A stretch of DNA of 45,740 nt from a virus. Numbering within the stretch: position 1 is the stretch's first letter; every line of letters begins with the position of its first letter. Under the pieces are notes generated by a model. It did not search any database. It was not told where the DNA came from and saw only the letters and a list, made by a program, of their open reading frames with translations. Where the stretch lies: the IMG/VR virus record IMGVR_UViG_3300049827_000336, positions 1 to 45,740 of that record. One strand, given 5' to 3'. This document shows positions 909 through 45,740 of the stretch, piece by piece. The translations under genes and the position numbers were made by a program.

Positions 909-1159
909 GCAACTTCGCGGATGACTGCGTCATCCGGCCGGCGAATGATGCATGTATTCCCAGTCCACATTACCGCACAGCGGGAAAGCCAGGCTCCACA
1001 TGTCGCGTGCATTCGGCAGAAAACTTCCCACTCTTCCATGAGTCGGTGTTGAGTATCTGGTGTTCGCCGGCGAATGGATACTTCATTCACTTTATACAAA
1101 AGGTCAAACATTTCCTCTGGAAGTATTGTTCGAGTTGTAATCTTCATCTTCATCTTCAT
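905..1159 (-). CDS. Small early protein of unknown function
   Basis: An 84-residue protein whose ATG at 1159 overlaps the TGA of the gene before it (ATGA), so translation is probably coupled. The start is a run of M-K repeats (MKMKMKI), giving three possible ATG codons. The first half looks like a normal helical protein. The last 30 residues run through palindromic DNA (GATGAC/GTCATC) close to the next promoter, so the native C terminus may have been altered. Not recognised. Confidence 0.6.
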   Translation of the reverse strand: MKMKMKITTRTILPEEMFDLLYKVNEVSIRRRTPDTQHRLMEEWEVFCRMHATCGAWLSRCAVMWTGNTCIIRRPDDAVIREVA

Positions 1160-1629
1160 TCTCCCATGAATTCCTTCCGCATGAGCGCAGCGACTGAATC
1201 ATCTTCCTCATGCTTTATCCCCTGTTCGCTAGTGCCTGGCCCTACCCTATACTTTTGCAGCATTCTTTCCTCAGCGCTTGTGCTTTCTCCTGTCCGTTGT
1301 CCTGTCCGTTGTCCGCCTCCTCCTGTTTGCCTTGCCAACTGTTCATTAATATCTTGCATTAAGCTCGACGTATCTTTCCACTCAAACACTAGCGTCATGC
1401 CTTCCCTTGTCGCGGCTATTCCATTAATGACTGCCGCTTCCGATTCATGTCGACGACTTGCCCGCAGTGATTTTGCAAAGTTATACCACATTCCTCGAAA
1501 GTGTTTTAGCTTCTTCTCCTCTACGAAATCAAAGCGTAAAGCCTCTGCATCTCCTCCTTTATCTGCAAAATGCGCTACGATGTTAAACAGTGCAACAGGA
1601 TACCTTGTCGGGTTTGATATTGCAGGCAT
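1156..1629 (-). CDS. Hypothetical phage early protein
   Basis: A 157-residue protein with an AGGAG site 7 bases before the ATG. The N-terminal 80 residues look folded, alternating aromatic/charged (YPVALFNIVAHFADKGGD). They are followed by a Gly/Gln/Thr-rich linker encoded by a short tandem repeat (TGTCCGTTGTCC type, near 1291-1312) and an acidic C-terminal tail. It is the first gene downstream of the strong promoter at 1683-1711 and the origin-like region, so it is early. No enzyme motif is visible; a DNA-binding or replication-accessory role is only suggested by position. Confidence 0.75.
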   Translation of the reverse strand: MPAISNPTRYPVALFNIVAHFADKGGDAEALRFDFVEEKKLKHFRGMWYNFAKSLRASRRHESEAAVINGIAATREGMTLVFEWKDTSSLMQDINEQLARQTGGGGQRTGQRTGESTSAEERMLQKYRVGPGTSEQGIKHEEDDSVAALMRKEFMGE

Positions 1630-1682: not shown

Positions 1683-1711
1683 ATTATGAAATGGGTTGTG
1701 TAGGTTGTCAA
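1683..1711 (-). promoter_or_regulatory. Early sigma70 promoter next to the origin-like region
   Basis: Minus-strand TTGACA (plus 1706-1711), 17-nt spacer, -10 CATAAT (plus 1683-1688, 5 of 6 to consensus). It reads leftward into 1629-1156 and lies at the edge of the AT-rich repeat region. Confidence 0.85.
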
Positions 1712-1738
1712 GTGGTATTATCACATCCTCTGTATTTC

Positions 1739-1882
1739 ATTCCCATTAGAGTTTATTATCGTAAGTATCTTATTCCTATTAGATTCCCTGTATTCTATTC
1801 CCATTAGATTTCAGTGCTGTGAGTATCCTATATTCAATATTCCCATTACATTGTAATATCCCATTCCGCCATTCCCATTAGA
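1739..1882. repeat. Five iterated ATTCCCATTAGA repeats (origin-like, left array)
   Basis: Copies of ATTCCCATTAGA or one-base variants begin at 1739, 1772, 1797, 1839 and 1871. They lie in markedly AT-rich non-coding DNA within a GC-rich genome. Intervening GTAAGTATC and GTGAGTATCC words are also related. They read as iteron-like protein-binding sites. Confidence 0.85.
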
Positions 1883-1888
1883 TCTTCA

Positions 1889-2010
1889 TTAGATAGTAGT
1901 ATCCCGTAGAACACCCCCTTTTGTGCTAGATGTATGAATGGAAAAATAAAAAAAAAAAGAACTACTACTACAGCCTATGGGGGGGTATTCTACGGTACAC
2001 TACTATCTAA
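1889..2010. repeat. Large imperfect inverted repeat with A-rich loop
   Basis: The left arm 1889-1918 (begins TTAGATAGTAGT, contains CCGTAGAA, ends ACCCCC) matches the reverse complement of 1981-2010 at 26 of 30 positions. The 62-base loop contains a nearly pure A tract around 1944-1959. Possible roles are origin dyad, cruciform or primer RNA. Confidence 0.87.
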
Positions 2011-2082
2011 TAGAAATCTAATGGGTATTTCGTCATTTATCGTGAACACGATACTACTCCCTAATAGGAATGAAAAAGTATC

Positions 2083-2176
2083 TAATACGAATTGTATACT
2101 AGCAATGTAATACGAATTGTATACCAACAATGTAATGCGAATTGTATAGTACCACTACGAATCTAATACGAACCAT
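2083..2176. repeat. 25-bp iterons TAATACGAATTGTATA (origin-like, right array)
   Basis: TAATACGAATTGTATA begins at 2083 and 2108, with TAATGCGAATTGTATA at 2133: an exact 25-bp spacing. A fourth partial copy is at 2164. The TCTAATnnGAAT core is the reverse-complement counterpart of the left-array word ATTCCCATTAGA, so the two arrays face each other across the central inverted repeat. Confidence 0.87.
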
Positions 2177-2244
2177 CTCCAAGCGCCAACCTTCACCTGG
2201 CCACCTCCAAGCGCCAAAGGCCGAGCCGACGGTGCTCGAAGAAA

Positions 2245-2285
2245 GGCCGGGAGTCCAGGTGCATGACGCACCCAGAGCCCCGGCC
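2245..2285 (-). terminator. Probable terminator or structured RNA after the 2348-2872 gene
   Basis: The outer stem GGCCGGG (2245-2251) pairs with CCCCGGCC (2278-2285). An inner stem GGTGC/GCACC has a 5-base loop. On the minus strand it is followed by TTTCTTC. A second hairpin lies just upstream at 2315-2336. Confidence 0.55.
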
Positions 2286-2998: not shown

Positions 2999-3206
2999 GG
3001 GGTATCCGGCCCGCCACCCTTGACCGCCATGCTCCTAGGGCGACTCCACTCAGGAGTTTGCGTGAGGGATTTAAGACCGCGCGGTTTACCCCGGATAAAC
3101 GGAAGGATTAATTGGCCCCAGTCCTCACTTGCCCCCAACCAACCCGCCCGCCTCTAGGCGGGGCGAATGCGGTATGGGGGCGAGTGCGGTATGAGGGGAC
3201 AGGCGA
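2999..3206. other. Divergent intergenic region between early and late blocks
   Basis: About 210 non-coding bases. It holds a CTCCT/AGGAG dyad near 3030-3055, a GTTTA/TAAAC dyad near 3083-3101, a CCCGCCT/AGGCGGG hairpin near 3147-3162, and copies of the 13-mer motif at 3160-3172 and 3177-3189 with a partial one at 3202-3211. I could not identify a convincing rightward sigma70 promoter, so late transcription may need an activator. Confidence 0.6.
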
Positions 3207-3211
3207 ATGCG
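3160..3211. repeat. 13-mer motif cluster upstream of the late operon
   Basis: GGGGCGAATGCGG at 3160-3172, GGGGCGAGTGCGG at 3177-3189 and a partial GGCGAATGCG at 3202-3211, all in the orientation opposite to the 88-136 array. The third overlaps the upstream candidate start codon of the terminase small subunit. Confidence 0.8.
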
Positions 3212-3815
3212 AACGGGAGAGGACTTAAAAGACAGGCTTGACACGAAGCTGCCATTGAGATATGGTTGGAACATGGCGGATATACAAAGACTCTCCCACA
3301 CGCATGAAGCGTTGATGGACTGGATGTTGGAAAATCCAGGGGCGGCACTTCGGGACTGCGCGGCGTACTTTGGGTATACGCAGGCTTGGGTCTCGACAGT
3401 GATTCATAGTGATATCTTCCAGGCGAAACTGAGGGAGAGGCGCGGACACATTGAGGCCGTTGTCGCCGCCGATATCCCGACGAAACTGCGGGCGGTAGCC
3501 GACATCGCCTTGGAGAAGTTGTCCGCGGCCCTCGAGGCGAGTGATAATGCAGGGTATATCGCGGAAACGGCGGATATGGTGCTGAATCGATTGGGCTATG
3601 GCGTGAAGGGAGGCGGGACGGCCCTGCCAGTCGTGCAGAATAATGTATTCATGGTGGATCAAGGGATGCTAGCTGCGGCCCGAGGAAGGATTGTGGAGGG
3701 GCTTCCGACGATAGAGGCAGGGCGAAGTATGGAGGTTGGGCGAAGTATGGAGGTTGTGGGGGTTGAGCATGGCTTGCAAGAAGCACAAGGGCGGGAAGCC
3801 GCCGAAAAAGGTTGA
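3207..3815 (+). CDS. Terminase small subunit-like DNA-binding protein
   Basis: Probably recognises phage DNA to start packaging together with the large subunit encoded two genes later. A helix-turn-helix lies at about residues 41-70 (ALRDCAAYFGYTQAWVSTVI followed by HSDIFQAKL), a pattern typical of phage terminase small subunits. An Ala-rich helical oligomerisation region and a low-complexity tail follow. The start is uncertain: ATG 3207 has GAGGGG upstream but lies inside a copy of the GCGAATGCG motif, while ATG 3273 (MADIQRLSHTHEA) starts where related proteins usually start. The C-terminal tail contains an exact 18-bp duplication coding GRSMEV twice. First gene of the late operon. Confidence 0.75.
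   Translation: MRTGEDLKDRLDTKLPLRYGWNMADIQRLSHTHEALMDWMLENPGAALRDCAAYFGYTQAWVSTVIHSDIFQAKLRERRGHIEAVVAADIPTKLRAVADIALEKLSAALEASDNAGYIAETADMVLNRLGYGVKGGGTALPVVQNNVFMVDQGMLAAARGRIVEGLPTIEAGRSMEVGRSMEVVGVEHGLQEAQGREAAEKG
3720..3755 (+). repeat. 18-bp tandem duplication in the terminase small subunit gene
   Basis: GGGCGAAGTATGGAGGTT occurs twice in tandem (3720-3737, 3738-3755), in frame, giving GRSMEV-GRSMEV in the C-terminal tail. Confidence 0.9.
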
Positions 3816-4294: not shown

Positions 4295-4494
4295 GCTATC
4301 GAGACCTCCTCGAATCCGTGCATAAGGCATTGCACTCTGCAGGAGTCAGTCAGTCCGACACGCACTTTTATCTCGACTGGATTGAGGATGAGGTGAGAAG
4401 GGAGAAGCAGGACTGGTGGGCGTGGATGGGAGTGGCGACCGTTGGCGGGTTTACGGCGGGGGCACTGATGTGCGTTTGGAGCCCCGTCATTTGA
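4291..4494 (+). CDS. Small single-span membrane protein
   Basis: 67 residues from a GTG start that overlaps the preceding TGA (GTGA). An amphipathic charged N-terminal half (DWIEDEVRREKQD) is followed by one transmembrane helix at about 44-64 (WWAWMGVATVGGFTAGALM). Together with the preceding gene it forms a pair of membrane proteins wedged between the terminase subunits. It could be holin-like by size and context, but one span and no sequence family leave this open. Confidence 0.65.
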   Translation: MSYRDLLESVHKALHSAGVSQSDTHFYLDWIEDEVRREKQDWWAWMGVATVGGFTAGALMCVWSPVI

Positions 4495-5966
4495 ACTCGC
4501 CCGTCGCGATTAATCCCGCGGAAGCCGTCGCCCTCGGCGCGGAATCGCTGGTGTTGTTCGGGCAGGTGTTTTTGCCGAAGACGTTTCGGCAGGCGTCCCC
4601 TGCCATGCATCACGACATGGCGGGAATGCTCTACGCACCCACCCGTTACAATGAGTTTCTCTGTTTCCGCGGCTCGGCGAAGACAACACTGCTTCGTGCC
4701 TTCACGCTTCAGCGGATTGCCTACGGCATTTCCCGGACGATCATGTACACCTCGTCGAGCCAGGGTCACGCGATCCACTCGATTCGGTGGTTAAAGCGGC
4801 AAATTGAGTCGAACCCGCGGCTGGCACCCTTCGCACTGAAGCCAGGGACGAAGTGGACGGATGAGTGGATTGAGATCGTCCACGGAATTGAGGGGCACAC
4901 GATCAACGTCTTTGCCGTCGGGATTACGGGGCAAATTCGAGGGTTTAACCTTGATGACTATCGGCCGGATTTCATCGTGGCAGATGATATCCTAGATGAG
5001 GAAAATACTGCGACAAAGGAACAGCGAACGAAGGTGGCGGATAGGTTCATGGGGGCGCTTATCAACAGCCTTGCGCCGGCGAGTGAAGCCCCGAGGGCAA
5101 AGGCGGTTCTCGCCCAGACGCCTTTCAATCGTTACGATCTGTCAATGCTGTGTGCAGCGGACCCGCAGTGGAATACCCGCAAGTACTCCGTGTTTGATGA
5201 GGCGGGGAACAGTCGGTGGGCAGTACGGTTTCCGACGGAAATGCTGAAGACGGAGAAGGCAAGCGCAATCGCCCGGGGAATGTATCGGAACTGGATGCGG
5301 GAGTGGGAATGCGAAGTCGTTATCGACGAGACTCAACCGTTCGACGTGGAGAAATTGCAGCACTGGTCCGCACTCCCCGACGACTTGACGAAGGTACTGA
5401 CGATCGACCCGGCGTCGTCGGACTCGAGGAAGGCCGATCAAAACGTAGTTATGGTGGTCGGCGCACGGGGCAAGGATTTTTACGTATGCGGGTACCACGC
5501 CGCTCAGGCAATGGATCCGGGGAAGACGAGTGCTAAGTTCTTCGAGCTGGCGATGGCCCACTCGCCCCTTCAACGCGCGGGAGTTGAGGCGGTCGCGTAC
5601 CAGCGGACCCTGAAGTGGCACATTGAGCAGGAGATGCAGAAGCGCCGGCTGTGGGTGCCGTTGCAAGAGATTAAGGCGACGGAGAGGAAGTCGAACCGGA
5701 TCATCGCTGCGATTGCGGGGATACTGAACTATGGCCACCTTTGGATCCACCCCTCGATGACGGAGCTGGTGGAGCAACTGGATCGTTATGATCCGGAAGA
5801 CCCGGATGCGGAGGACGACATTTTGGACGCGCTTGCGATGGCGGTGGTGATGCTGAATCCGGCGCTGCGGGCGTATTCCGGCCTGGATGAGGAAGCGATT
5901 GAGGGGGAGTTTAGTGTAATGGACGAACGGGAATACAAACAACTGAGGGTTGCCGCATGTCCCTGA
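4491..5966 (+). CDS. terL: Terminase large subunit (packaging ATPase/nuclease)
   Basis: The motor that cuts and translocates DNA into the prohead through the portal. The ATPase P-loop is RGSAKTT at residues 60-66 and Walker B is FIVADD at 161-166. The nuclease domain has an acidic residue in TIDPASSD (D306) and the late acidic cluster DDILDALA (D442, D443, D446), in the canonical order. The TTG at 4491 is preferred because GGAG lies 9 bases upstream and it overlaps the previous TGA; an in-frame GTG at 4470 and ATG at 4416 are alternatives. Length 491 residues fits the family. The stop overlaps the portal start. Confidence 0.93.
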   Translation: MNSPVAINPAEAVALGAESLVLFGQVFLPKTFRQASPAMHHDMAGMLYAPTRYNEFLCFRGSAKTTLLRAFTLQRIAYGISRTIMYTSSSQGHAIHSIRWLKRQIESNPRLAPFALKPGTKWTDEWIEIVHGIEGHTINVFAVGITGQIRGFNLDDYRPDFIVADDILDEENTATKEQRTKVADRFMGALINSLAPASEAPRAKAVLAQTPFNRYDLSMLCAADPQWNTRKYSVFDEAGNSRWAVRFPTEMLKTEKASAIARGMYRNWMREWECEVVIDETQPFDVEKLQHWSALPDDLTKVLTIDPASSDSRKADQNVVMVVGARGKDFYVCGYHAAQAMDPGKTSAKFFELAMAHSPLQRAGVEAVAYQRTLKWHIEQEMQKRRLWVPLQEIKATERKSNRIIAAIAGILNYGHLWIHPSMTELVEQLDRYDPEDPDAEDDILDALAMAVVMLNPALRAYSGLDEEAIEGEFSVMDEREYKQLRVAACP

Positions 5967-7906
5967 ATCCATTCGCCGGCCAGTTTAAGCTAGGCACGGA
6001 GAAGCACCGGAAGATCTCCTCGTGGCTCGATGATAGGGTGAACCTCGCGCACGACGCCTACGACAGTCGCTTCTCCGACATGCTGAAAATGGAGAAGCAG
6101 TTCAACGCCTACGTTCCGACGAAGGATGTGGATCGGGAGCGGAAGCGGAAGAAGTCGGAGGAGGGCGAACACGACTATGTAACGATCGAGATTCCGTACT
6201 CGTATGCGACACTGATGACGGCGCATACGTACTATACCTCGGTGTTCATGGGAAGGAATCCGACGTTCCAGATGGCGGGTCGGCACGGGGAAGGGGAGCA
6301 GCAGACCCAGTGCGTTGAGGCGCTGCTTGATTATCAGTTCACAACCGGCGGCGGAATGGTGCCGCTGTTTGTTTGGCTGCTTGATCCGGGGCGATTTGGC
6401 TATGGCGTGATTGGCCACTTCTGGGACACCGAGCGAATCACGACCAGGCAGTATGTGGAGGAAGTACCGACGTTTCTTGGGTTGCCGATTCCAGGGGCAA
6501 AGCCGCGGAGAGTGCCGCAGCTCACCCAATCCGTGGGGTATCAAGGGAATCGGCTGTTCAATGTTCGCCCGCAGGACTTTCTGCCCGACCCGCGAAAGGC
6601 GCTGATTGACTTCCAAAAGGGTGAGTTCTGCGCCCGCTACGTGGAGATTTCGTGGCACGAGCTGAGCGCCGGCGAGCGGAGCGGGAAGTACTTCAACGTG
6701 GCTGCGTTGAAAGCGGCGCATGAGGCGACCCTACAGGGAAACATCGGGACAGTGACGCGGGATCGGGGGGCTGAGGATCTCGTGGCGCACTTGCAGCTTC
6801 CGGATAACGCCTTTGATGGGATTTCGAGCTATGAGATTCCCTCGGGGTTGGTGAAGGGGCATGAAATCTACGTTCGGCTGGTGCCGAGCGAGTGGGGACT
6901 GGGCGAGGGAGATGACTATGAAGTGTGGGTTTTCTCCAGATCCCAGACGGGAATTGTGTTTGGGGTGGAACCGCTGGGCTTGATCCACGGGAAGTTCCCC
7001 TTTGACATCCTTCTGAACGAGACGGAGGGGTATTCGCTGTTCAGCGCGTCCATGATGGATCGGGTTAGCCCGCTGAATGATGCGTTGTCGTGGCTTTTGA
7101 ACAGCCATATGTACAATGTTCGGGCGATGCTGAATAATCAGCTCGTGGTTGATCCCTCGCGGGTCGTGATGAAGGATGTGGAGTCGAAAGAAGCGGGAAA
7201 GATCATTCGGTTAAAGCCGGCGGCCTATGGCCAGGACGCCCGATCGGTGATTTCGCAGCTTCAAGTGGGCGATATTACCCGTTCACACCTTAATGATATG
7301 CAAATGTTCGAGCAGATCATTCAGAGGGTGCTCGGAGTCAACGACAATGTGATGGGGATGGTGAATACTGGTGGGCGGAAAACGGCGACGGAGGTCAGAT
7401 CGTCGACTTCCTTCTCCGTTAATCGGCTGAAAACGACGTGTGAGTGGTTTTCGGCGACCGGATTCGCGCCGCTGGCCCAGAAGTTGGTCCAGTCGAGCCA
7501 ACAACTGTATGACATGGGCCGGAAGATGAAGATCGTCGGGGACTTGGGCCAGATGGCGCCTCAGTTCGCGATGGTTACCTCCGATTCGATTGCGGGATTT
7601 TATGACTATGTGCCGGTCGATGGGACGCTTCCAGTGGATCGGTTTGCTCAGGCTAACCTTTGGCAGATGCTGATGGGACAGGCGAGGAACTTTCCGCAGA
7701 TCATGCAGGGGGTGGATATGGTGAAGCTGTTCGGGTGGGTGGCGAACCTGGCTGGGCTGAAGAACTTCAATCAGTTTAAGCTGCAAGTCGTGCCGGATGC
7801 AATGGCGATGGGGCAGGCACAGGCGGGGAACGTTGTCCCGCTTCGTGGTGGGCCGCCGCAGCTTACGGAGCCGGGCCAGGTGCCAATGATGGGGCAAACG
7901 ACATGA
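5957..7906 (+). CDS. Portal protein
   Basis: A 649-residue podovirus-type portal that would form the dodecameric DNA channel at one capsid vertex, docking the terminase and later the tail. Support comes from the length, its place directly after the terminase, an N-terminal charged helical region (SRFSDMLKMEKQFNAY) with a long stem-like helix, and the characteristic internal YGVIGHFW-type wing segment. The C-terminal part ends in a Gln/Gly/Pro-rich barrel-like tail. ATG 5957 overlaps the terminase end by 10 bases and the stop overlaps the next ATG (ATGA). Confidence 0.85.
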   Translation: MSLNPFAGQFKLGTEKHRKISSWLDDRVNLAHDAYDSRFSDMLKMEKQFNAYVPTKDVDRERKRKKSEEGEHDYVTIEIPYSYATLMTAHTYYTSVFMGRNPTFQMAGRHGEGEQQTQCVEALLDYQFTTGGGMVPLFVWLLDPGRFGYGVIGHFWDTERITTRQYVEEVPTFLGLPIPGAKPRRVPQLTQSVGYQGNRLFNVRPQDFLPDPRKALIDFQKGEFCARYVEISWHELSAGERSGKYFNVAALKAAHEATLQGNIGTVTRDRGAEDLVAHLQLPDNAFDGISSYEIPSGLVKGHEIYVRLVPSEWGLGEGDDYEVWVFSRSQTGIVFGVEPLGLIHGKFPFDILLNETEGYSLFSASMMDRVSPLNDALSWLLNSHMYNVRAMLNNQLVVDPSRVVMKDVESKEAGKIIRLKPAAYGQDARSVISQLQVGDITRSHLNDMQMFEQIIQRVLGVNDNVMGMVNTGGRKTATEVRSSTSFSVNRLKTTCEWFSATGFAPLAQKLVQSSQQLYDMGRKMKIVGDLGQMAPQFAMVTSDSIAGFYDYVPVDGTLPVDRFAQANLWQMLMGQARNFPQIMQGVDMVKLFGWVANLAGLKNFNQFKLQVVPDAMAMGQAQAGNVVPLRGGPPQLTEPGQVPMMGQTT

Positions 7907-31877: not shown

Positions 31878-32070
31878 AGCATCGAGAGGAGCGCGGGCAG
31901 GATAGCTCCTCTAGGCGGACTCGTCGCCGCCACTTTCGTACATGTCGAGGGGTTATGCATAGCTCCTCGACAATCGCTTTAGTCTGCCATCCTCGCCGGG
32001 CGTAGAAGTAAGACCAAATGCAGCAATACCCCATTCGGCGAATGCGGACTGCAATGACCTCATATCCCAT
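31777..32070 (-). CDS. Small possible HTH protein overlapping the giant gene's end
   Basis: A 97-residue ORF whose ATG 32070 overlaps the stop of the upstream gene by 11 bases. The N-terminal half has an HTH-like run (ARRGWQTKAIVEELCITPRH followed by VRKWRRR). The last third is antisense to the 3' end of the giant gene and looks like filler. It may be the last gene of the leftward operon or a fragment; moderate to low certainty. Confidence 0.45.
   Translation of the reverse strand: MGYEVIAVRIRRMGYCCIWSYFYARRGWQTKAIVEELCITPRHVRKWRRRVRLEELSCPRSSRCFIHTKIQSPHTLPDTFAAEADQILLPESLAGGP
31885..31912. terminator. Hairpin at the convergent junction
   Basis: AGAGGAGC (31885-31892) and GCTCCTCT (31905-31912) form an 8-bp perfect stem with a 12-base loop, eight bases past the giant gene stop. 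A second perfect stem TGTCGAGG/CCTCGACA lies at 31943-31972. Neither has a U tract, but placement between converging operons fits termination or RNA protection. Confidence 0.5.
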
Positions 32071-33313
32071 GGCCAGTTGCGGACACTATTAGTTGTCCGC
32101 CCTCATTTTTGACCGTAACGTGGCCGGCTTGAATAGCTGACTTAAGCGCGACGGAGAATTCATCAGCTGACATAAGGCGAAAGACCCGTTGGTAGAGGTC
32201 ATTGTGATTGACGCGAAGAAGGTGGTGGACAATCTCGACAATTTGCGTGGAATGGCGACTTTCAACCGTCTGGCCGATCCGGGCGAAGACGCGATTGAGC
32301 GTGGGCTCGAGGGAAGATACGATGTCAGTGGCGGTGGATAACTGTTCACGGGTTATGGATAAGGTATTCCCGGCGCTCGCGCAAAGGATCATGGCGAGTT
32401 TGTGGATGTGCGTTTGCTTCCGGGCGAGGTAGCCGCCGAATTGCTCTTGGGATAAGTTGGGTGGAGGATTTTTCCAGTGATGAGAATACCACGATCGGCC
32501 CCATTCGCGGGCCGGCTGCGATATCTCAACCTCGCCGAATAGCGTGGATATTGCCTCGAGGTCGTGGATAAGGGTCTTTTGCAGATCGAGGAAATCTCCT
32601 GGAGTTGCTTCATCGGGATAGGCAACTTCCTGACGTTTGGTATCTGCGTAGACGAATACGCAACGGGAGGTGAAGCCGCCGCCAATGAGATACTCGGGAA
32701 AGTTACCGGATATCCAGGCAGGAGTGGTACAACCGATGAAGTTGATCCACGGATTATTCACCACTTCCTCTCCTCCGCCTTTAGTTAGTTTCCGTAAACT
32801 TCCTTTCTTTCCATCCCACAGGGTGACGAGTAAATCCACCATGTCACGGTCTTGAGGGTTGAGAAAGTTGCCGAGTTCGTCGCTGGCAACGGTAAGGGAG
32901 GACATGGATAGGAATTCCCCGGTGTTGGGGTCGACGACTTCCTCTGACGCCCCAGCGAATGCGGTGACAAGGGCCTGCCACGTCACTACATCTGGACCGA
33001 AGTGAATGCCCTCGACTTCACGGAGAAGGTTCATTCCGATATTGGCGGTTGTTGACTTGGATATAATACCCGGCGGAGCGACGAGGATGATGTAAAAGTT
33101 CGCGAGCCACTGGAAATACTTCATGTCGATGAAGACTTGACGACGTAGCGCGCCGGCAATGGTAGAGACTCCCGTCCACATAAGGGTGGATATTGGGGCT
33201 TCGCCGTGAGATGCGTAGTCAATGAAGGAACGTAGCCAGTCTTCATGATAACGAGTTCCGTTGACGCGGCGGACGAAAGGTGGTGCGGCGAGGCTAGGGC
33301 CATTGGCGTCCAA
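32060..33313 (-). CDS. DUF3987-like P-loop replication protein
   Basis: 417 residues from TTG 33313, supported by GGGGAG 6 bases upstream and a 20-base overlap with the polymerase C-part. Around residues 79-97 ILVAPPGIISKSTTANIG is a degenerate P-loop (SKST in place of GKS/T). SLTVASDELGNFL is a Walker B-like segment with conserved acidic residues, and FIGCTTPAWISG fits a sensor strand. This arrangement resembles DUF3987-type proteins of phages, considered helicase/primase-associated. It sits at the end of the replication cluster. Whether it hydrolyses ATP is uncertain because of the altered P-loop. Confidence 0.7.
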   Translation of the reverse strand: MDANGPSLAAPPFVRRVNGTRYHEDWLRSFIDYASHGEAPISTLMWTGVSTIAGALRRQVFIDMKYFQWLANFYIILVAPPGIISKSTTANIGMNLLREVEGIHFGPDVVTWQALVTAFAGASEEVVDPNTGEFLSMSSLTVASDELGNFLNPQDRDMVDLLVTLWDGKKGSLRKLTKGGGEEVVNNPWINFIGCTTPAWISGNFPEYLIGGGFTSRCVFVYADTKRQEVAYPDEATPGDFLDLQKTLIHDLEAISTLFGEVEISQPAREWGRSWYSHHWKNPPPNLSQEQFGGYLARKQTHIHKLAMILCASAGNTLSITREQLSTATDIVSSLEPTLNRVFARIGQTVESRHSTQIVEIVHHLLRVNHNDLYQRVFRLMSADEFSVALKSAIQAGHVTVKNEGGQLIVSATGHGI

Positions 33314-34040
33314 CGCATTCTCCCCAGGATTTATTTGAAGCTTTTAACCCCCACGGAATCGTGAGGGGATCTTCATATGGGATAGGAATGGAGATGAGAG
33401 GGAGAAGGGCGGCTAAGGTTTCGTCAAGGATGCGGGACGGAATTTGAATAACGAGGGAATCATGGACTTGAAGCAGGACTTCAGCGGGGATGCCGGACTC
33501 GTCGATGTTGAGCCAGGCGTAATTGGTAACACAGGCAACGGTGGATTGAGGAACCCAAGCAAGGGCTTCGTTAAAGACGGCGTCTGGCCGGTCGAAGTAT
33601 AGGCGGCGATATCCGAAGGGATTTCGGACAGAATGGGTGGAGGCAAGGTCGGACTTTACGCGCTCATGCCAGCGAAGAATACCGGGATGAATGGAGAACC
33701 AGCGGGCTTGGAAACGCTCGGCTTCGTGTATGGTAATGCCGAGGGCGGAGGCGACGGTGCGAGCCTTAGCGCCGTAGTTTGTGGCGTGGACGCCGACTTT
33801 CGCGCGGGTGTAGTATGGTTCACGCTTTCCGTCGGGGCCGGCGACTGGGCCGAAGATGTCGATGGCGTTGAGGGCGTGGACCTTTTTCCCCGACCGAAAC
33901 TTGGCCTTCAACGCCTCATCTCCGGATTCCCATGCGACGACCTGAGCGTCGGCACCGGCTTGGTCAATGTCGATGAGGGTGTATCCGGGGTCAGGGATGA
34001 ACATGGCCCGGAGGTTGGGTAAGTTAGCGACTGGGATCAT
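33294..34040 (-). CDS. DNA polymerase family A, C-terminal (palm/fingers) part
   Basis: 248 residues carrying the polymerase catalytic motifs: motif A TLIDIDQAGAD (catalytic D26), motif B RAKVGVHATNYG (79-90) and motif C QVHDSL (H193, D194). It starts MIPVANLPNLRAMFIPDPGY, the point where a single-chain family A enzyme would continue from the NLQNIP segment found at the end of the gene at 34084-35667. The two parts are in different frames, separated by a stop and 43 bases. The ATG at 34040 overlaps the stop of an 11-codon minicistron (ATGA). The active enzyme presumably forms from two chains. Confidence 0.85.
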   Translation of the reverse strand: MIPVANLPNLRAMFIPDPGYTLIDIDQAGADAQVVAWESGDEALKAKFRSGKKVHALNAIDIFGPVAGPDGKREPYYTRAKVGVHATNYGAKARTVASALGITIHEAERFQARWFSIHPGILRWHERVKSDLASTHSVRNPFGYRRLYFDRPDAVFNEALAWVPQSTVACVTNYAWLNIDESGIPAEVLLQVHDSLVIQIPSRILDETLAALLPLISIPIPYEDPLTIPWGLKASNKSWGECVGRQWP

Positions 34041-34072
34041 GCTTTTTCTCGCTTAAGTAAATCCTTGTCCAT
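34037..34072 (-). CDS. 11-codon bridging minicistron between polymerase parts
   Basis: ATG 34072 with AAAGGA 8 bases upstream encodes MDKDLLKREKA, and its TGA overlaps the ATG of the polymerase C-part. It lies in the third reading frame relative to both polymerase parts. The Shine-Dalgarno begins right after the TAA of the N-part. The arrangement looks like a translational-coupling device; it may also be chance. Confidence 0.4.
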   Translation of the reverse strand: MDKDLLKREKA

Positions 34073-34083
34073 TTTATTTTCCT

Positions 34084-35667
34084 TTATTCAGTGCGGGGGA
34101 TATTCTGCAAATTACCTCCGCTACCAAATGCATCTTCTGATGAGGATAAGCGGAAGGTCTCTGCTCCGGCTGGGTTAAACGATGACCTCATTCGGTTATC
34201 GCTATCCAATGGCATCTTGATGAAGGTGTTAAGGAATACTCCCATAGACCGCATTTGCAGGATCGTTGTGATGAGGTCATGGATGAGGGGCTCCTTCCGG
34301 GCGAGAACGGTAAGGGACTTTTCGTCCAAGGAGGGCATACCGGATTTACGATGGCGCTGGACAGGGAGCTTCAAGTCGTCATAGAAAAAGGCCTTCATTT
34401 GTTTCGGGGAGCTAACGTTAAGTTCAAATCCTGCGACGAAGTTGATAAGGGCTTGATGTTCGGTGATGGAGGAAAAGACTTCGCCGGCGAGTCGAGCACG
34501 GTAAGGACGGTCGATATTAACGCCCCGGAGCATGGTTTTGAATACTGGCCTGGAGGTGAACTTCATTTGTAATTTGTACTGTTCGACCAGCCCGGCTTGC
34601 TTGAGGGCGGTAAAAAGTACTGGCATGATTTCGAAGGTGCGACAACAGTCGACGGTATTGTAGTTCCAGAACGCATGAATATCGACTGGATATCGGTGGT
34701 AATCCTTGAGATCATCCTTCCAGTAAATGTGATTCTCACAGTACATGGAGGAGAGGAAATCAAGTGACTTTTGCATTCCGGGAAACAAGACAGACTGGGC
34801 AATCATCGTATCGTCAGTATGGTTTGGATTAATCCCGAGGTGCTTGGCGAAATGCTGACGATCATAAAGGCCGTTTTGCCAGATGACGGGGACAGTTGTG
34901 AGTATATCCTGGATGGAAAGGATGATGGCAGCTTCTTGTTCCGCGGACCAATAGGGGGTGCCGCCTCGACCGGCAAAGGGGATACATATAGCCTCCGTCG
35001 GTGACCAGGCAAGGCCGAGACAAGCGATATGTCGAGCGATCGTTTCGATGTCAGCAGCGACTTGACAACGCTTTTCGAAGATAAGATCAAGGGTGTCCAT
35101 GACGACTGCATAGCTCGGCTCGATGATCGCGTTGATAGCGTAAGGTTTGATCTCCGGGAACATTTGTTCGCGCTTACATCGCCGCAAGTCATGAACGGTT
35201 ATGTTTCGCCACTCGTACATGCGGAAAATGGCGAGGGGGGAGTATATGGGAATGACCTTAAGGTCAGGGACCAGCGTACAAGGCATGGTTGACCCGCGCC
35301 AGTTGCCAATGGCGTGCTCGCCGGTGAGGGCCCATAAAGCTGTTCGTCCAGCGGCGATGATGAGGTTCGGGCGAATGCGCTCGAGGAGTTCCTTAAGGTC
35401 AGCCATGCCGGATGCGACTTCAGGGCCAGGCTTTGTCTGGGACTTATCGAGGAAGAAGTGGGCAATGTCTCCGTTCGGCGGGCGAGTGGGGCAAACGTGA
35501 GTGATTGTGATATCCGAGCGGAGGATACCTGCCTCGTGAAGCATGGAGGTGAGGAAAGACCCGGCGGAGCCGGAGAATGGCTGACCGAAGCGAACGTCAT
35601 CGTCAGTTGGAACTTCCCCGACGAGGACGATTTTCGCCCCGGAGACAATAACCGGGGCGACTCTCAT
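34084..35667 (-). CDS. DNA polymerase family A, N-terminal part: UDG-like domain, 3'-5' exonuclease and thumb
   Basis: 527 residues. Residues 1-165 resemble a family 4-type uracil-DNA glycosylase domain (VLVGEVPTDDD near 14-24; VCPTRPPNGD near 58-67; IAAGRTALWALTG near 104-116). The 3'-5' exonuclease motifs are Exo I ADIETIA (D206, E208), Exo II WQNGLYDRQHF (N265, D269) and Exo III YNTVDCCR (Y336, D340). The chain then runs through the thumb and ends TFRLSSS (504-510) and NLQNIPRTE (519-527), exactly before where motif A should come, and stops at TAA. The palm is encoded by 33294-34040. UDG-like fusions to phage polymerases are known, but this split is unusual. Confidence 0.85.
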   Translation of the reverse strand: MRVAPVIVSGAKIVLVGEVPTDDDVRFGQPFSGSAGSFLTSMLHEAGILRSDITITHVCPTRPPNGDIAHFFLDKSQTKPGPEVASGMADLKELLERIRPNLIIAAGRTALWALTGEHAIGNWRGSTMPCTLVPDLKVIPIYSPLAIFRMYEWRNITVHDLRRCKREQMFPEIKPYAINAIIEPSYAVVMDTLDLIFEKRCQVAADIETIARHIACLGLAWSPTEAICIPFAGRGGTPYWSAEQEAAIILSIQDILTTVPVIWQNGLYDRQHFAKHLGINPNHTDDTMIAQSVLFPGMQKSLDFLSSMYCENHIYWKDDLKDYHRYPVDIHAFWNYNTVDCCRTFEIMPVLFTALKQAGLVEQYKLQMKFTSRPVFKTMLRGVNIDRPYRARLAGEVFSSITEHQALINFVAGFELNVSSPKQMKAFFYDDLKLPVQRHRKSGMPSLDEKSLTVLARKEPLIHDLITTILQMRSMGVFLNTFIKMPLDSDNRMRSSFNPAGAETFRLSSSEDAFGSGGNLQNIPRTE

Positions 35668-35870: not shown

Positions 35871-37151
35871 CTAGATGTCGATAGACAGGGACTTGATTCG
35901 CTCGGCGCAGATGTTGGCGTAGGCATCATTAGGCTCAATCCCGATAGCAACGCAGGACTGAGCGTCTGCTGCAGGGAAGATGGGGCCGGAACCTGCGCAC
36001 GCATCCAGAATGATATCGCCGGGGAGTGCGGAACGAGACAGCAGATCTATGTACAGGGCAACTGGTTTCGCCGCCCCGTGATCTTCAGCTTCAGCGGGGA
36101 TTGGGATCACGTCGGATTTGATGAGGTTGACCCGGCGATTTCCCTTAATGGCGAAAAGGATACACTCATACATGCGGCGAGGACCGTGTTCGGGCCAAGG
36201 AAGCATCCCCCGGTTCTTCGCCCAGATGAGGGGAGTCGGCCAAACTCGCCAGCCGGCAAGCTCGAACATTCCAGTGATTGAGGCAAAATGGCGAATGTCG
36301 AGGAAAAGGTAGGCGTGGGCACCGGCTGGAGATGCGAGCCGGGCAAATTCCCCCGCGAGGAAATCATACCGCTTAAGGGCAGATGCCTCGTCGTCGACGT
36401 ATGCGTGTTCGGTTGAAGCCTGGGAACCAAACTCATCCGCACCGACGCCGTAAGGAGGGTCGGTGATGAAGACTGCGATGTTGGGAGTAATGATGGGTAA
36501 GAGGTCTTCGCAACGACCTTTGTATAACTGATGAGGGGAGGCGGCTGGATTGAACGAGGCGGCGAGATCCGCTCGTTTTTCCGCGAGCAAGCGTTTCCGT
36601 ACAATCTTTTCCGCTTCCTTAAAGGAGGTTGCTTTCCTCACTTCCGGATCGTCAAGGAATGGTTTGAGTGCGATGGCGGTCGAGACGTTTGTGATTTGCT
36701 GACCTTCGGCCGGGGAACCTTGGATCTCACTCGCCGTCGCGCGAAGAGTTTGCGTAGGGTTCTGGGCTTTGCGCAGATCGTGCAGGCGGTTCACGGCCTC
36801 GATGTGTTCGATGAAGGGGAGGTCCACGCGAATGACGTTTTCAGCGAGCTCGAGCTCGAGCGCATGCAGTGGGTCGATTTCGCCGAAGGTGGTGATGGGA
36901 ATTGAGCCCGGCGGAATGCGGATATCGCCGCAAGTAAAGGCAATGTTTTTGACTACGAGCTGCTCAATCGCTCGCATTCGCCGTTCGCCGGATACCAGCA
37001 TCCATTGTCCATTCTCCCGCCGAGCAACGGGCGGATTCTGCAAGCCGAAGTGGGCAATGCTTGAAGCAAGTTCGTTAAGCTTGCCCTGATCGAAGGTCCG
37101 TCGCATACGGTAGTCCGGGACGATTAGTTCTGATAGTTTAATGATTAGCAC
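35871..37151 (-). CDS. ParB-like nuclease domain fused to DNA methyltransferase
   Basis: 426 residues from GTG 37151 (GGAG 7 bases upstream). The N terminus has ParB-type sequence (LIVPDYRMRRTFDQGKLNEL; MLVSGERRMRAIEQL at 51-65). The C-terminal half is an N6-adenine/N4-cytosine methyltransferase: DPPYG at 231-235 (motif IV), then an AKPVALY motif X-like segment (361-367) and the SAM-binding DACAGSGPI at 383-391 (motif I). The order IV-X-I is that of the circularly permuted beta class. Such ParB-MTase fusions occur in phages and probably modify phage DNA against host restriction. Recognition sequence not predictable. A terminator separates it from the preceding gene. Confidence 0.87.
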   Translation of the reverse strand: MLIIKLSELIVPDYRMRRTFDQGKLNELASSIAHFGLQNPPVARRENGQWMLVSGERRMRAIEQLVVKNIAFTCGDIRIPPGSIPITTFGEIDPLHALELELAENVIRVDLPFIEHIEAVNRLHDLRKAQNPTQTLRATASEIQGSPAEGQQITNVSTAIALKPFLDDPEVRKATSFKEAEKIVRKRLLAEKRADLAASFNPAASPHQLYKGRCEDLLPIITPNIAVFITDPPYGVGADEFGSQASTEHAYVDDEASALKRYDFLAGEFARLASPAGAHAYLFLDIRHFASITGMFELAGWRVWPTPLIWAKNRGMLPWPEHGPRRMYECILFAIKGNRRVNLIKSDVIPIPAEAEDHGAAKPVALYIDLLSRSALPGDIILDACAGSGPIFPAADAQSCVAIGIEPNDAYANICAERIKSLSIDI

Positions 37152-37710: not shown

Positions 37711-37971
37711 CTATGCTATGGGTAAGTTGGATGTGTCGATTGGTTCCCACTCGGCGCGATACCACACTTCGCTCAAAGCGAGTTCCCTACCCTCGACACG
37801 GGGGCGTTCCAGCGTGAAATCATAGTTACCCGTCTGCCAGCGGATAAAGGTGACGGGGCGATTGCGGTATGTGCCTTCTCGAACAATGTAACGGATGACG
37901 GCTAAGGGTTCAAATCCCCTATAGCTTACGCCACTTTCGCGAGTGTAAATGAAACGATACCGATTAGCCAT
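37711..37971 (-). CDS. Small protein between ATPase and SSB-like gene
   Basis: 86 residues from ATG 37971 (MANRYRFIYTRESGVSYRGF), overlapping the ATPase end by 8 bases. A longer in-frame ORF reaching 38196 is antisense-free but overlaps the ATPase in another frame and is not credible. The protein is rich in Arg and aromatic residues (VREGTYRNRPVTFIRWQTGNY), which could suit nucleic-acid contact. Unknown function. Confidence 0.7.
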   Translation of the reverse strand: MANRYRFIYTRESGVSYRGFEPLAVIRYIVREGTYRNRPVTFIRWQTGNYDFTLERPRVEGRELALSEVWYRAEWEPIDTSNLPIA

Positions 37972-42667: not shown

Positions 42668-43077
42668 TCGAGGTCCTCTTGCTTCCGCTCCCAGCGCTCA
42701 CGAGCATACTCGTCCGCCAGGGCGCGGTCCTTCTCGGCCCGCTTGGCGAGCTCCTGCTGCACCCATGCGTCGGCTCTGCGACAGAAGAGCAGGTTGCGCA
42801 GCTGATGAGCCAAGGCAATCAATTGATTCTCCACCATTTCCACGTCGGGCGCGGTGGTTTCCGCTGCTTGTTGCGTGGCGGCTATCAGCGAGGCGAGGAG
42901 CGCGAGGTCCTCTTCGGCATTCAGGTCGAATTGCTCAGCAATTACGGACTGCGCTAACTTCGGGTCCCGCAACCACTCCGCAGCGTGGTTCTCAGCCTCT
43001 TCCTCGAGGGCTTCCTGCGCCTCGGCCTCCTCGCAGGCGTCTTGATACGGCTGCTCCAGCCAGTTGTCATAGCTCAT
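42664..43077 (-). CDS. Acidic helical early protein
   Basis: 137 residues, AGGAG before the ATG, overlapping the methyltransferase start. The N terminus is extremely Glu/Ala-rich (DACEEAEAQEALEEEAENHA) and the remainder forms long charged helices (LAKRAEKDRALADEYARERW). Highly acidic early proteins sometimes act as DNA mimics; that is speculation here. Not recognised. Confidence 0.72.
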   Translation of the reverse strand: MSYDNWLEQPYQDACEEAEAQEALEEEAENHAAEWLRDPKLAQSVIAEQFDLNAEEDLALLASLIAATQQAAETTAPDVEMVENQLIALAHQLRNLLFCRRADAWVQQELAKRAEKDRALADEYARERWERKQEDLE

Positions 43078-43091
43078 GATTGTCTCCTAGT

Positions 43092-43151
43092 CTATATAGC
43101 CATTGCAAGAAACGGGTTGTCCATGGAGTAGAGTACGCGCTTAAGTTTCAT
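43092..43151 (-). CDS. 19-residue leader-like ORF
   Basis: ATG 43151 with GGAG about 6 bases upstream encodes MKLKRVLYSMDNPFLAMAI and ends at TAG, 15 bases before the next gene's ATG. Could be a leader peptide controlling that gene or a chance ORF. Confidence 0.4.
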   Translation of the reverse strand: MKLKRVLYSMDNPFLAMAI

Positions 43152-43183
43152 CGGGGTCTCCGTAGGTTAGTGAGGTACAGCCC

Positions 43184-43205: not shown

Positions 43206-43211
43206 AAGATG

Positions 43212-43718
43212 TTACTCGGCCGACTCCTGGGGACAGACGAACTTCATAATCGGAACGTCTTCGACGATTTCGACCCACTTGAAGGTTGTCCGCTGTTCTG
43301 TCCGCTCGACGATGATTGTGCAGGTTGAGTCCTCGGCCAAGTAGGCCGCGAAAATCCAGTTGACGAATACGGACTCCTCGTCGAGGTCTTCAAGCAGAAT
43401 CGTCGTCCGCCACTCGAACGTGCGCTTCCGTTCGTTTGGATCGTCGGTCGTGACGATCTCGTCTGGATCACCCGCGGTTGCTGTGATTAGGGAATCCAAC
43501 TTCTGGGCCAGCTCGCCGTCGTTGAAACTATCGTAGCTAATCGCTGGGAGGTAGATGGAGATTGTCGGCTGATAGCTCGACATGCTGATTGTGCTGACAT
43601 CGACATCGGGGAGCTTCGTCGTGAGGGAATTAAGGCGTTTGAGCGCCAACTGCCGCTCGGCGATGATGTTGATGTAGGCGCGCTTTACTGCGGCGATGGC
43701 TTCGATCATAGAGTTCAT
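43212..43718 (-). CDS. Hypothetical early protein
   Basis: 168 residues, GGAG 8 bases before the ATG. A helical N terminus (EAIAAVKRAYINIIAERQLA) is followed by a strand-rich, acidic body (RTTILLEDLDEESVFVNWIF; CTIIVERTEQRTTFKWVEIV). Flanked by hairpins on both sides, so it may be expressed separately from its neighbours. Not recognised. Confidence 0.72.
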   Translation of the reverse strand: MNSMIEAIAAVKRAYINIIAERQLALKRLNSLTTKLPDVDVSTISMSSYQPTISIYLPAISYDSFNDGELAQKLDSLITATAGDPDEIVTTDDPNERKRTFEWRTTILLEDLDEESVFVNWIFAAYLAEDSTCTIIVERTEQRTTFKWVEIVEDVPIMKFVCPQESAE

Positions 43719-43740
43719 AGTATGGTCTCCGATTGGTTGT

Positions 43741-43793
43741 GGGTAGGCGGAAGCTTACCCCCACTAGGCCGCGTTGCGTTACGAGCGGCCTAG
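43741..43793 (-). promoter_or_regulatory. Tandem hairpins in the 43719-43808 gap
   Basis: A 9-bp perfect stem CTAGGCCGC (43764-43772) with GCGGCCTAG (43785-43793), loop 12 bases, extendable by flanking C/G runs, sits beside a GGGTA/TACCC hairpin (43741-43760). Without a U tract this looks like an attenuator, processing site or 3' stabiliser rather than a standard terminator. Confidence 0.5.
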
Positions 43794-43808
43794 GGAGGGG
43801 TTCCTCGG

Positions 43809-44150
43809 CTATCGAATTGTGGGTGCGGTCTCCGGGGGCTCAACCAGCGTGGAGAAATGGAGGATTTGCTCCGGAGTACTGTGGGTTTTGTCGGCCAGCG
43901 TGTCAGCGGACAACTTTCCCTCGGCGACGAGCATTGCCGAGAGGATGCGAATGAGTCCCCCGCATACGAGGTATTCCTCGGCCAGGGAACTCAGGGACTT
44001 CACGGCTCGCCGCTCTCCGTCTGTTCCTGCAAATTCCGACAGCAGGCCCAAGATGGGCAGCATCGCACCCATCCGTTCAGTTTTCTTGATTTGCCTTGCG
44101 ATCTCCGAGTGGATATCAGCCAGGGTCAACTTATCTTTGTCAGTCATCAT
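43809..44150 (-). CDS. Hypothetical early protein
   Basis: 113 residues from ATG 44150, overlapping the preceding stop (ATGA); a second ATG at 44147 is adjacent. Mostly helical (LADIHSEIARQIKKTERMGA; AVKSLSSLAEEYLVCGGLIR). Coupled to the ribbon-helix-helix gene upstream, so the pair could act together like a regulator and its partner. Not recognised. Confidence 0.7.
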   Translation of the reverse strand: MMTDKDKLTLADIHSEIARQIKKTERMGAMLPILGLLSEFAGTDGERRAVKSLSSLAEEYLVCGGLIRILSAMLVAEGKLSADTLADKTHSTPEQILHFSTLVEPPETAPTIR

Positions 44151-45597: not shown

Positions 45598-45740
45598 AAT
45601 CGCGCGCATTCGCACCCATTATACACACGGTTAATCCAGCTTGTCAAGCCCCTTGCCCCCCAACTTCCGTCCGCCGTACCCGGGCCGCACTCGCCCCGCG
45701 TACCGCACTCGCCCCGCGTACCGCACTCGCCCCGCCCCCG
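45598..45740. repeat. Terminal redundancy of circular assembly, copy 2
   Basis: Second copy of bases 1-143. The third 18-bp unit reads CCGCACTCGCCCC here and CCGTGTTCGCCCC in copy 1. That suggests real population variation or a collapsed tandem array at the junction. Confidence 0.9.
45618..45647 (-). promoter_or_regulatory. Early sigma70 promoter (redundant copy)
   Basis: Same promoter as at 21-50, duplicated by the terminal redundancy. The TATAAT box lies about 70 bases upstream of the ATG at 45546. Confidence 0.88.

Follow-up and report, generated by a model that had tools for sequence, protein, structure and literature searches.

A dyad of opposed repeat arrays most likely marks a replication start or genome-end cut site in dozens of related viruses

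The whole stretch of DNA analyzed here, referred to as the window, corresponds to a 45,740-base virus record from IMG/VR. Between two of its minus-strand genes, approximately 1.0–1.5 kb from the position at which the gene strand switches, a repeat-rich non-coding site is located, which raises the question of what function this site has for the virus. A sequence-only reading had regarded it as origin-like. Based on the comparative analysis described below, the dyad formed by the repeats most likely marks the start of DNA replication or a genome-end cut site in dozens of related viruses.

The repeat region and its genomic context

Late genes of the window are located on the plus strand and comprise a small-terminase-like gene (3207–3815), labeled according to its position and a weak similarity and encoding an N-terminal HTH-like region, the large terminase gene (Terminase_6C in Pfam, 4416–5966) and the gene for an SU10-like portal protein (5957–7906). 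Early and replication genes are encoded on the minus strand, such as those for a DUF3987/primase protein (32060–33313), a split family A DNA polymerase carrying a uracil-DNA glycosylase domain (33294–35667), a DNA methyltransferase fused to a ParB N-terminal domain (35871–37151), an AAA_24 ATPase, a PD-(D/E)XK nuclease and a small early ORF with no assigned function (905–1159). The window DNA yielded no match to named phages. Since the first and last approx. 143 bases of the contig (1–143 and 45598–45740) are near-identical, with few differences lying within a repeated stretch, a circular or terminally redundant genome map is probable.

Two further features of the genome were recorded. Two ORFs encode the polymerase, the break falling directly after NLQNIP, and the 44-bp gap holds a stop, a short ORF and a sequence resembling a ribosome-binding site; a single ORF encodes the enzyme in Microcystis phage Mel-JY34 and ctMlz233, and other ORFs lie between the two polymerase parts in Vibrio phage VS-ABTNL-3 and Caulobacter phage Kuura. 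Moreover, a second repeat, GCGAATGCGGTATG, occurs nine times in the window (0.4 expected), often as G+C-rich inverted pairs at gene boundaries (102–286, 3163–3193, 32038–32051, 37858–37871 and 45699–45730).

When up to two mismatches were allowed, the 13-bp unit ATTSSYATTAGAT was found 14 times in the 45,740 bases, compared to a mean of 4.0 and a maximum of 10 in shuffled sequences. Twelve of these matches fall within the non-coding stretch 1739–2173, where the first five are located on the plus and the last seven on the minus strand, all of them pointing inward; only two matches lie elsewhere in the window. Motif search thus delineated a left array (1739–1883, plus strand), consisting of three exact copies of ATTCCCATTAGA (1739, 1797 and 1871) and two copies with one change (1772 and 1839), and a right array (2005–2173, minus strand), consisting of three 25-bp-spaced units (2080–2154), one with a G in its core, and units at 2005, 2016, 2059 and 2161. 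The inner arms of the long inverted repeat, 1871–1918 and 1981–2028, are 85% complementary over 48 nt and lie 62 nt apart, and the full dyad has arms of 179 and 192 nt with 123 matches and 54 mismatches. Its core is a 62-bp spacer (1919–1980) with a GC content of 0.29, in which an A11 tract (1948–1958) exceeds every other A/T run of the window in length. Where the right arm meets the spacer, a GGGGGGTA box (1980–1987, plus strand) is found in a G7 run (1979–1985). The GC content of the dyad stretch is 0.346 as opposed to 0.560 for the window, which is practically the window minimum. Accordingly, the related arrays in opposed orientation, the central dyad and the AT-rich island in a GC-rich genome, all of which had been described in the sequence-only reading, were recovered.

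Twelve copies of a short site next to an AT-rich spacer with an A11 tract correspond to iterons and an AT-rich core, i.e., the usual parts of an origin (PMC7145576). Iteron origins, including the RepA_N iterons of plasmids and of the PLE satellite, likewise combine an AT-rich part with initiator-type sites in several copies; there, poly-A lies inside each short iteron, whereas the dyad features one A-tract between two multi-iteron arms (PMC7145576). Unlike RepA_N- and Rep3-type origins, the window offered no initiator of these or other known kinds, in agreement with the initial reading: Pfam analysis covered 30 ORFs, including 27 from the early (minus) strand, and identified neither a known-family initiator nor a RepA_N match among them, and a search of the record for Rep3 (PF01051) was negative. 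The DnaA box TTWTNCACA has two matches in the window, both in the overlapping contig ends (22–30 and 45619–45627), and none near the dyad. The oriS and oriL origins of herpes simplex virus are imperfect palindromes with inverted initiator boxes around an A+T-rich spacer; this is an analogy of layout only, to an animal virus with an unrelated initiator and other repeat units, sizes and genes.

Recurrence of the layout in related phages

In order to compare loci, relatives of the large terminase were fetched, and dyads were identified by aligning each side of a region to the reverse-complemented opposite side. The terminase set, from which five duplicates (L005, L007, L010, L053 and L057) had been excluded, consisted of 20 non-redundant loci; the window was one of them, and each extends 4.4 kb or more upstream from the large terminase gene. 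In 16 of the 20 loci, a dyad with a score of at least 33 and an A/T run of at least 8 was detected 1.8–4.1 kb upstream of the terminase gene. Two further loci, L062 and L046, are borderline, the latter having an A9 tract with the same neighbors, and L056 and L058 showed no such dyad. A score of 33 was reached by none of 127 shuffled loci and by one of 131 second-best dyads, and A/T runs of at least 8 occurred in 10 of 2,622 background windows. A search by means of the KAWR protein family (see below) provided 76 loci, oriented by the KAWR gene with a few orientations possibly wrong; 44 of them have such a dyad, 37 of these with the A/T run. Since ORFs and loci are mutually related, hypergeometric and Wilcoxon values served as guides only.

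The dyad is the top-scoring one of the whole record in Microcystis phage Mel-JY34, Vibrio phage vB_VspS_VS-ABTNL-3, phage ctMlz233 and Desulfofustis phage LS06-2018-MD01. In 119X, Tiera, EBPR podovirus 3 and ctLwi270, which were also scanned, a dyad containing a long A/T run was not detected. A dyad with a score of 76 and an AT-rich center lacking a long A run was noticed in ctLwi270 (L167, 35830–35960), near the large terminase gene on the other strand, and is perhaps a related element.

Across 73 regions, array similarity exceeding 100 bp was found in two pairs only, not counting repeated entries of one phage. Layout and position are conserved, and the repeat sequence differs in almost every phage. 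This recurrence of one dyad layout with different repeat sequences upstream of the terminase gene is the new, comparative result of this study; a literature search covering few subscription papers found no earlier description of the layout. In the pair L097/L101, the core is conserved and both arms changed together, as would be expected if the arms follow a changing binder; this pair and L096/L100 are the only two informative ones regarding covariation of array and protein. Constant elements were evaluated for 48 regions, i.e., the 73 regions minus 17 duplicates and eight with a dyad but no long run. GGGGGTA, represented in the window by the GGGGGGTA box, is present in 23 of the 48 (2.5 in the background) and A7 in 47 of them, or in 47 of 56 at worst when the run-less regions are counted. 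Furthermore, 18 of the 20 aligned loci have their A-tract on the terminase strand; of three additional phages, Kuura agrees and VS-ABTNL-3 and LS06-2018-MD01 disagree, resulting in 19 of 23. The phage group concerned, characterized by a family A polymerase, a DUF3987 helicase-primase and an SU10-like portal, is common in metagenomes. The dyad provides a landmark recognizable by layout rather than by sequence, giving one place to test in any group member, and its repeat arrays constitute a natural series for studying the joint change of binder and site.

The alignment also bears on the nature of the element. A single strand of the dyad can fold into a long hairpin (z = −7.2, computed as DNA), as would be expected of a structured RNA made from it. 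However, arm mismatches in the 20 aligned dyads comprise 381 transversions and 254 transitions, and those allowing G:U pairing number 132 for the top and 122 for the bottom strand, i.e., neither strand is favored or resembles a maintained RNA helix. No match to Rfam was obtained for the dyad, and terminators shield it from incoming transcription (see below). An RNA element was rejected on the mismatch pattern and the missing Rfam match and is considered highly improbable; the lack of wobble bias in the arms argues that the dyad acts as DNA.

Flanking signals and neighboring early proteins

Directly outside the left arm of the window dyad, a sigma-70-like promoter, TTGACA-N17-CATAAT, was read from the sequence (1683–1711, minus strand); it points outward, toward the ORF at 1156–1629. 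Such an outward promoter at the left flank occurs in nine of the 20 loci, compared to none of 20 in each of the three other flank/strand choices and a background of 1.5%. On the right side, a terminator-like nested hairpin with a T-rich tail (2238–2285, minus strand), suited to leftward transcription from 2348–2872, was recognized by eye, having been missed by the terminator script with its loop limit of 9. Incoming leftward terminators at the right flank were detected in 11 of the 20 loci, as opposed to 0, 0 and 1 of 20, with a background of 18 in 600. The dyad is often framed by an incoming terminator and an outward promoter. With the promoter directly outside the left arm and the first early gene adjoining, the arrays could be mere operators for a regulator of this outward early promoter. 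We regard control of early transcription as the sole function as quite improbable, because it leaves unexplained why a symmetric counterpart of the left arm exists at distances of up to 460 bp from the promoter, as well as the A-tract core and the skew break reported below.

Two uncharacterized early protein families, to which the landmark points, accompany the dyad. The KAWR family has 27 members in 17 of the 20 loci, within 3.5 kb of the dyad; residues H, G, Q, K and D are invariant across 14 aligned members, and the tail is acidic. The window encodes two members on the minus strand, namely 295–837, with the motif HG..QK..D and an acidic tail, and 2348–2872, right of the dyad, the longest ORF of which runs to 2998. 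Family A3 is very diverse, with 41 members in 36 of 51 dyad loci, and includes the ORF at 1156–1629 (minus strand), the first early gene left of the window dyad. In total, 23 of the 41 members, five of which were seeds picked at this very position, occupy the gene position closest to the dyad and read away from it, compared to 237 of all 3,597 ORFs; an A3 member takes that place in 22 of the 51 dyad loci. The proposal that a nearby early protein reads the arrays therefore gained support: the 1156–1629 product is the candidate array binder and probably reads the arrays, and 295–837 and 2348–2872, considered in the same proposal, both belong to the second family found beside dyads.

No functional match was obtained for either family. 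The KAWR model (pLDDT 83, pTM 0.50) had no PDB match at E ≤ 0.001 and three viral matches, all unnamed. For the A3 model (pLDDT 80.6, pTM 0.57), which follows the order helix-strand-helix-helix-strand-strand-helix, the first Foldseek rows were mostly winged-helix regulators, the best being a weak match to TubR (E 0.074), and a second aligner gave a best Z of 5.1, likewise weak, to unrelated folds; these matches carry no weight in the interpretation. The small-terminase-like protein (TerS) was also considered as reader of the variable repeats and is disfavored because its putative recognition helix varies less than expected, being rather conserved across 20 phages with different arrays.

Possible roles as replication start or genome end

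Based on the early-gene neighbors, the insulation from transcription, the A-tract core and the jointly changing arms, we tentatively favor the dyad as a cis-acting replication start site, with a confidence slightly short of even. Conservation of the layout despite changing sequence, seen in 16 of the 20 terminase loci and in 44 of the 76 KAWR loci, would also speak for an origin. An early protein, most likely the 1156–1629 product, would bind the inward-facing repeats of both arms, and the bound arms would build a symmetric complex straining and opening the A-tract/AT-rich core. The DUF3987 helicase-primase and the family A DNA polymerase would then load at the opened core, where replication would start.

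Strand asymmetry was evaluated on both sides of the dyad. GC3 skew of same-strand KAWR genes differs across it in all eight genomes with such genes on both sides, and that of other minus-strand ORFs in nine of nine genomes. Over 18 loci, skew on the terminase strand drops from about +0.09 at 2 kb left of the dyad to −0.08 at 0.5–1 kb right of it, and in Kuura and Mel-JY34 it increases over the entire genome, starting on one side of the dyad and ending on the opposite one. The window departs from this pattern, with third-position skews of 0.17 and 0.22 across the dyad and no change of sign; its GC skew changes near 3.0 kb, together with the gene strand, so that the skew switch suggested as a check of the origin at this site was not observed. 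A bidirectional origin usually shows a change from minus to plus in the direction of the plus strand. The window shows no change, and the shift of the 18 loci from plus (left) to minus (right) is the reverse, which counts against an origin, as do the lack of a known-family initiator, the lack of a DnaA box near the dyad and a measured end of Kuura inside a comparable structure. The skew break in relatives fits either a replication origin or a genome end. Leading strands are usually G-rich, and if this holds here, the sign is more compatible with a genome end or a meeting point than with an origin. The earlier origin proposal is thus backed by the breaks in relatives and opposed by their sign and by the unbroken skew of the window; the origin itself is what we infer.

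A genome-end (packaging) site, at which the terminase system or a partner would bind the arms around a cut in the spacer/G-run, the cut making the left border of the terminal repeat in the concatemer, is a real, if somewhat unlikely, alternative because of the measured end of Kuura. For this phage, a 606-bp direct terminal repeat was determined by PhageTerm (PMC9959647). In the Kuura record, bases 1–606 equal the last 606 (43208–43813). The left border at 43208 lies in a G-run, beyond an A12 tract (43141–43152), and between inverted GGGCAGT repeats, four rightward ones (43037–43072) and leftward ones at 43234–43249 (from 43242), with a further copy at about 43314. The sign of the skew and the position of the dyad upstream of the terminase genes also fit a genome end. 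Moreover, the small terminase of SPP1 binds the pac site (pacL-pacC-pacR) to either side of the cut, with TerS oligomers bracketing the latter on bent DNA (PMC4856287); pacL and pacR share no sequence identity, whereas the dyad arms are inverted copies of each other.

However, Kuura is one distant case, its large terminase being 29.5% identical and its dyad score of 25 corresponding to noise level. It has no KAWR or TerS-family match and a weak, non-adjacent A3 match, and no relative bridging Kuura to the dyad family was found. The rather conserved putative recognition helix of TerS and the early genes in the neighborhood likewise argue against a packaging site. The terminal-repeat junction of T7, a podophage cis site for concatemer processing, has no comparable dyad within 3 kb; the N4 junction was left out, its record having no terminal repeat. 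Among 20 full-length IMG/VR contigs, 15 have end overlaps of assembly size (96–213 bp) and five have none, i.e., no long terminal repeat was found in this set.

In some phages, the place of the dyad may also be the genome end. By analogy with N4, for which DNA synthesis is reported to start at the genome ends (PMC3896407), replication start and genome end may be one place. A control site joining both, in which a polar A-tract core and G-box are constant and the arms are repeatedly replaced together with a fast-changing early binder, is regarded as unlikely. If it existed, the pair of repeat and binder would represent an identity tag of the replicon, and co-infecting relatives or satellites could not use each other's site.

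Finally, intergenic tandem direct duplications of approximately 73 bases were observed in Kuura (L086, 43241–43381) and Tiera (L165, 43920–44080).
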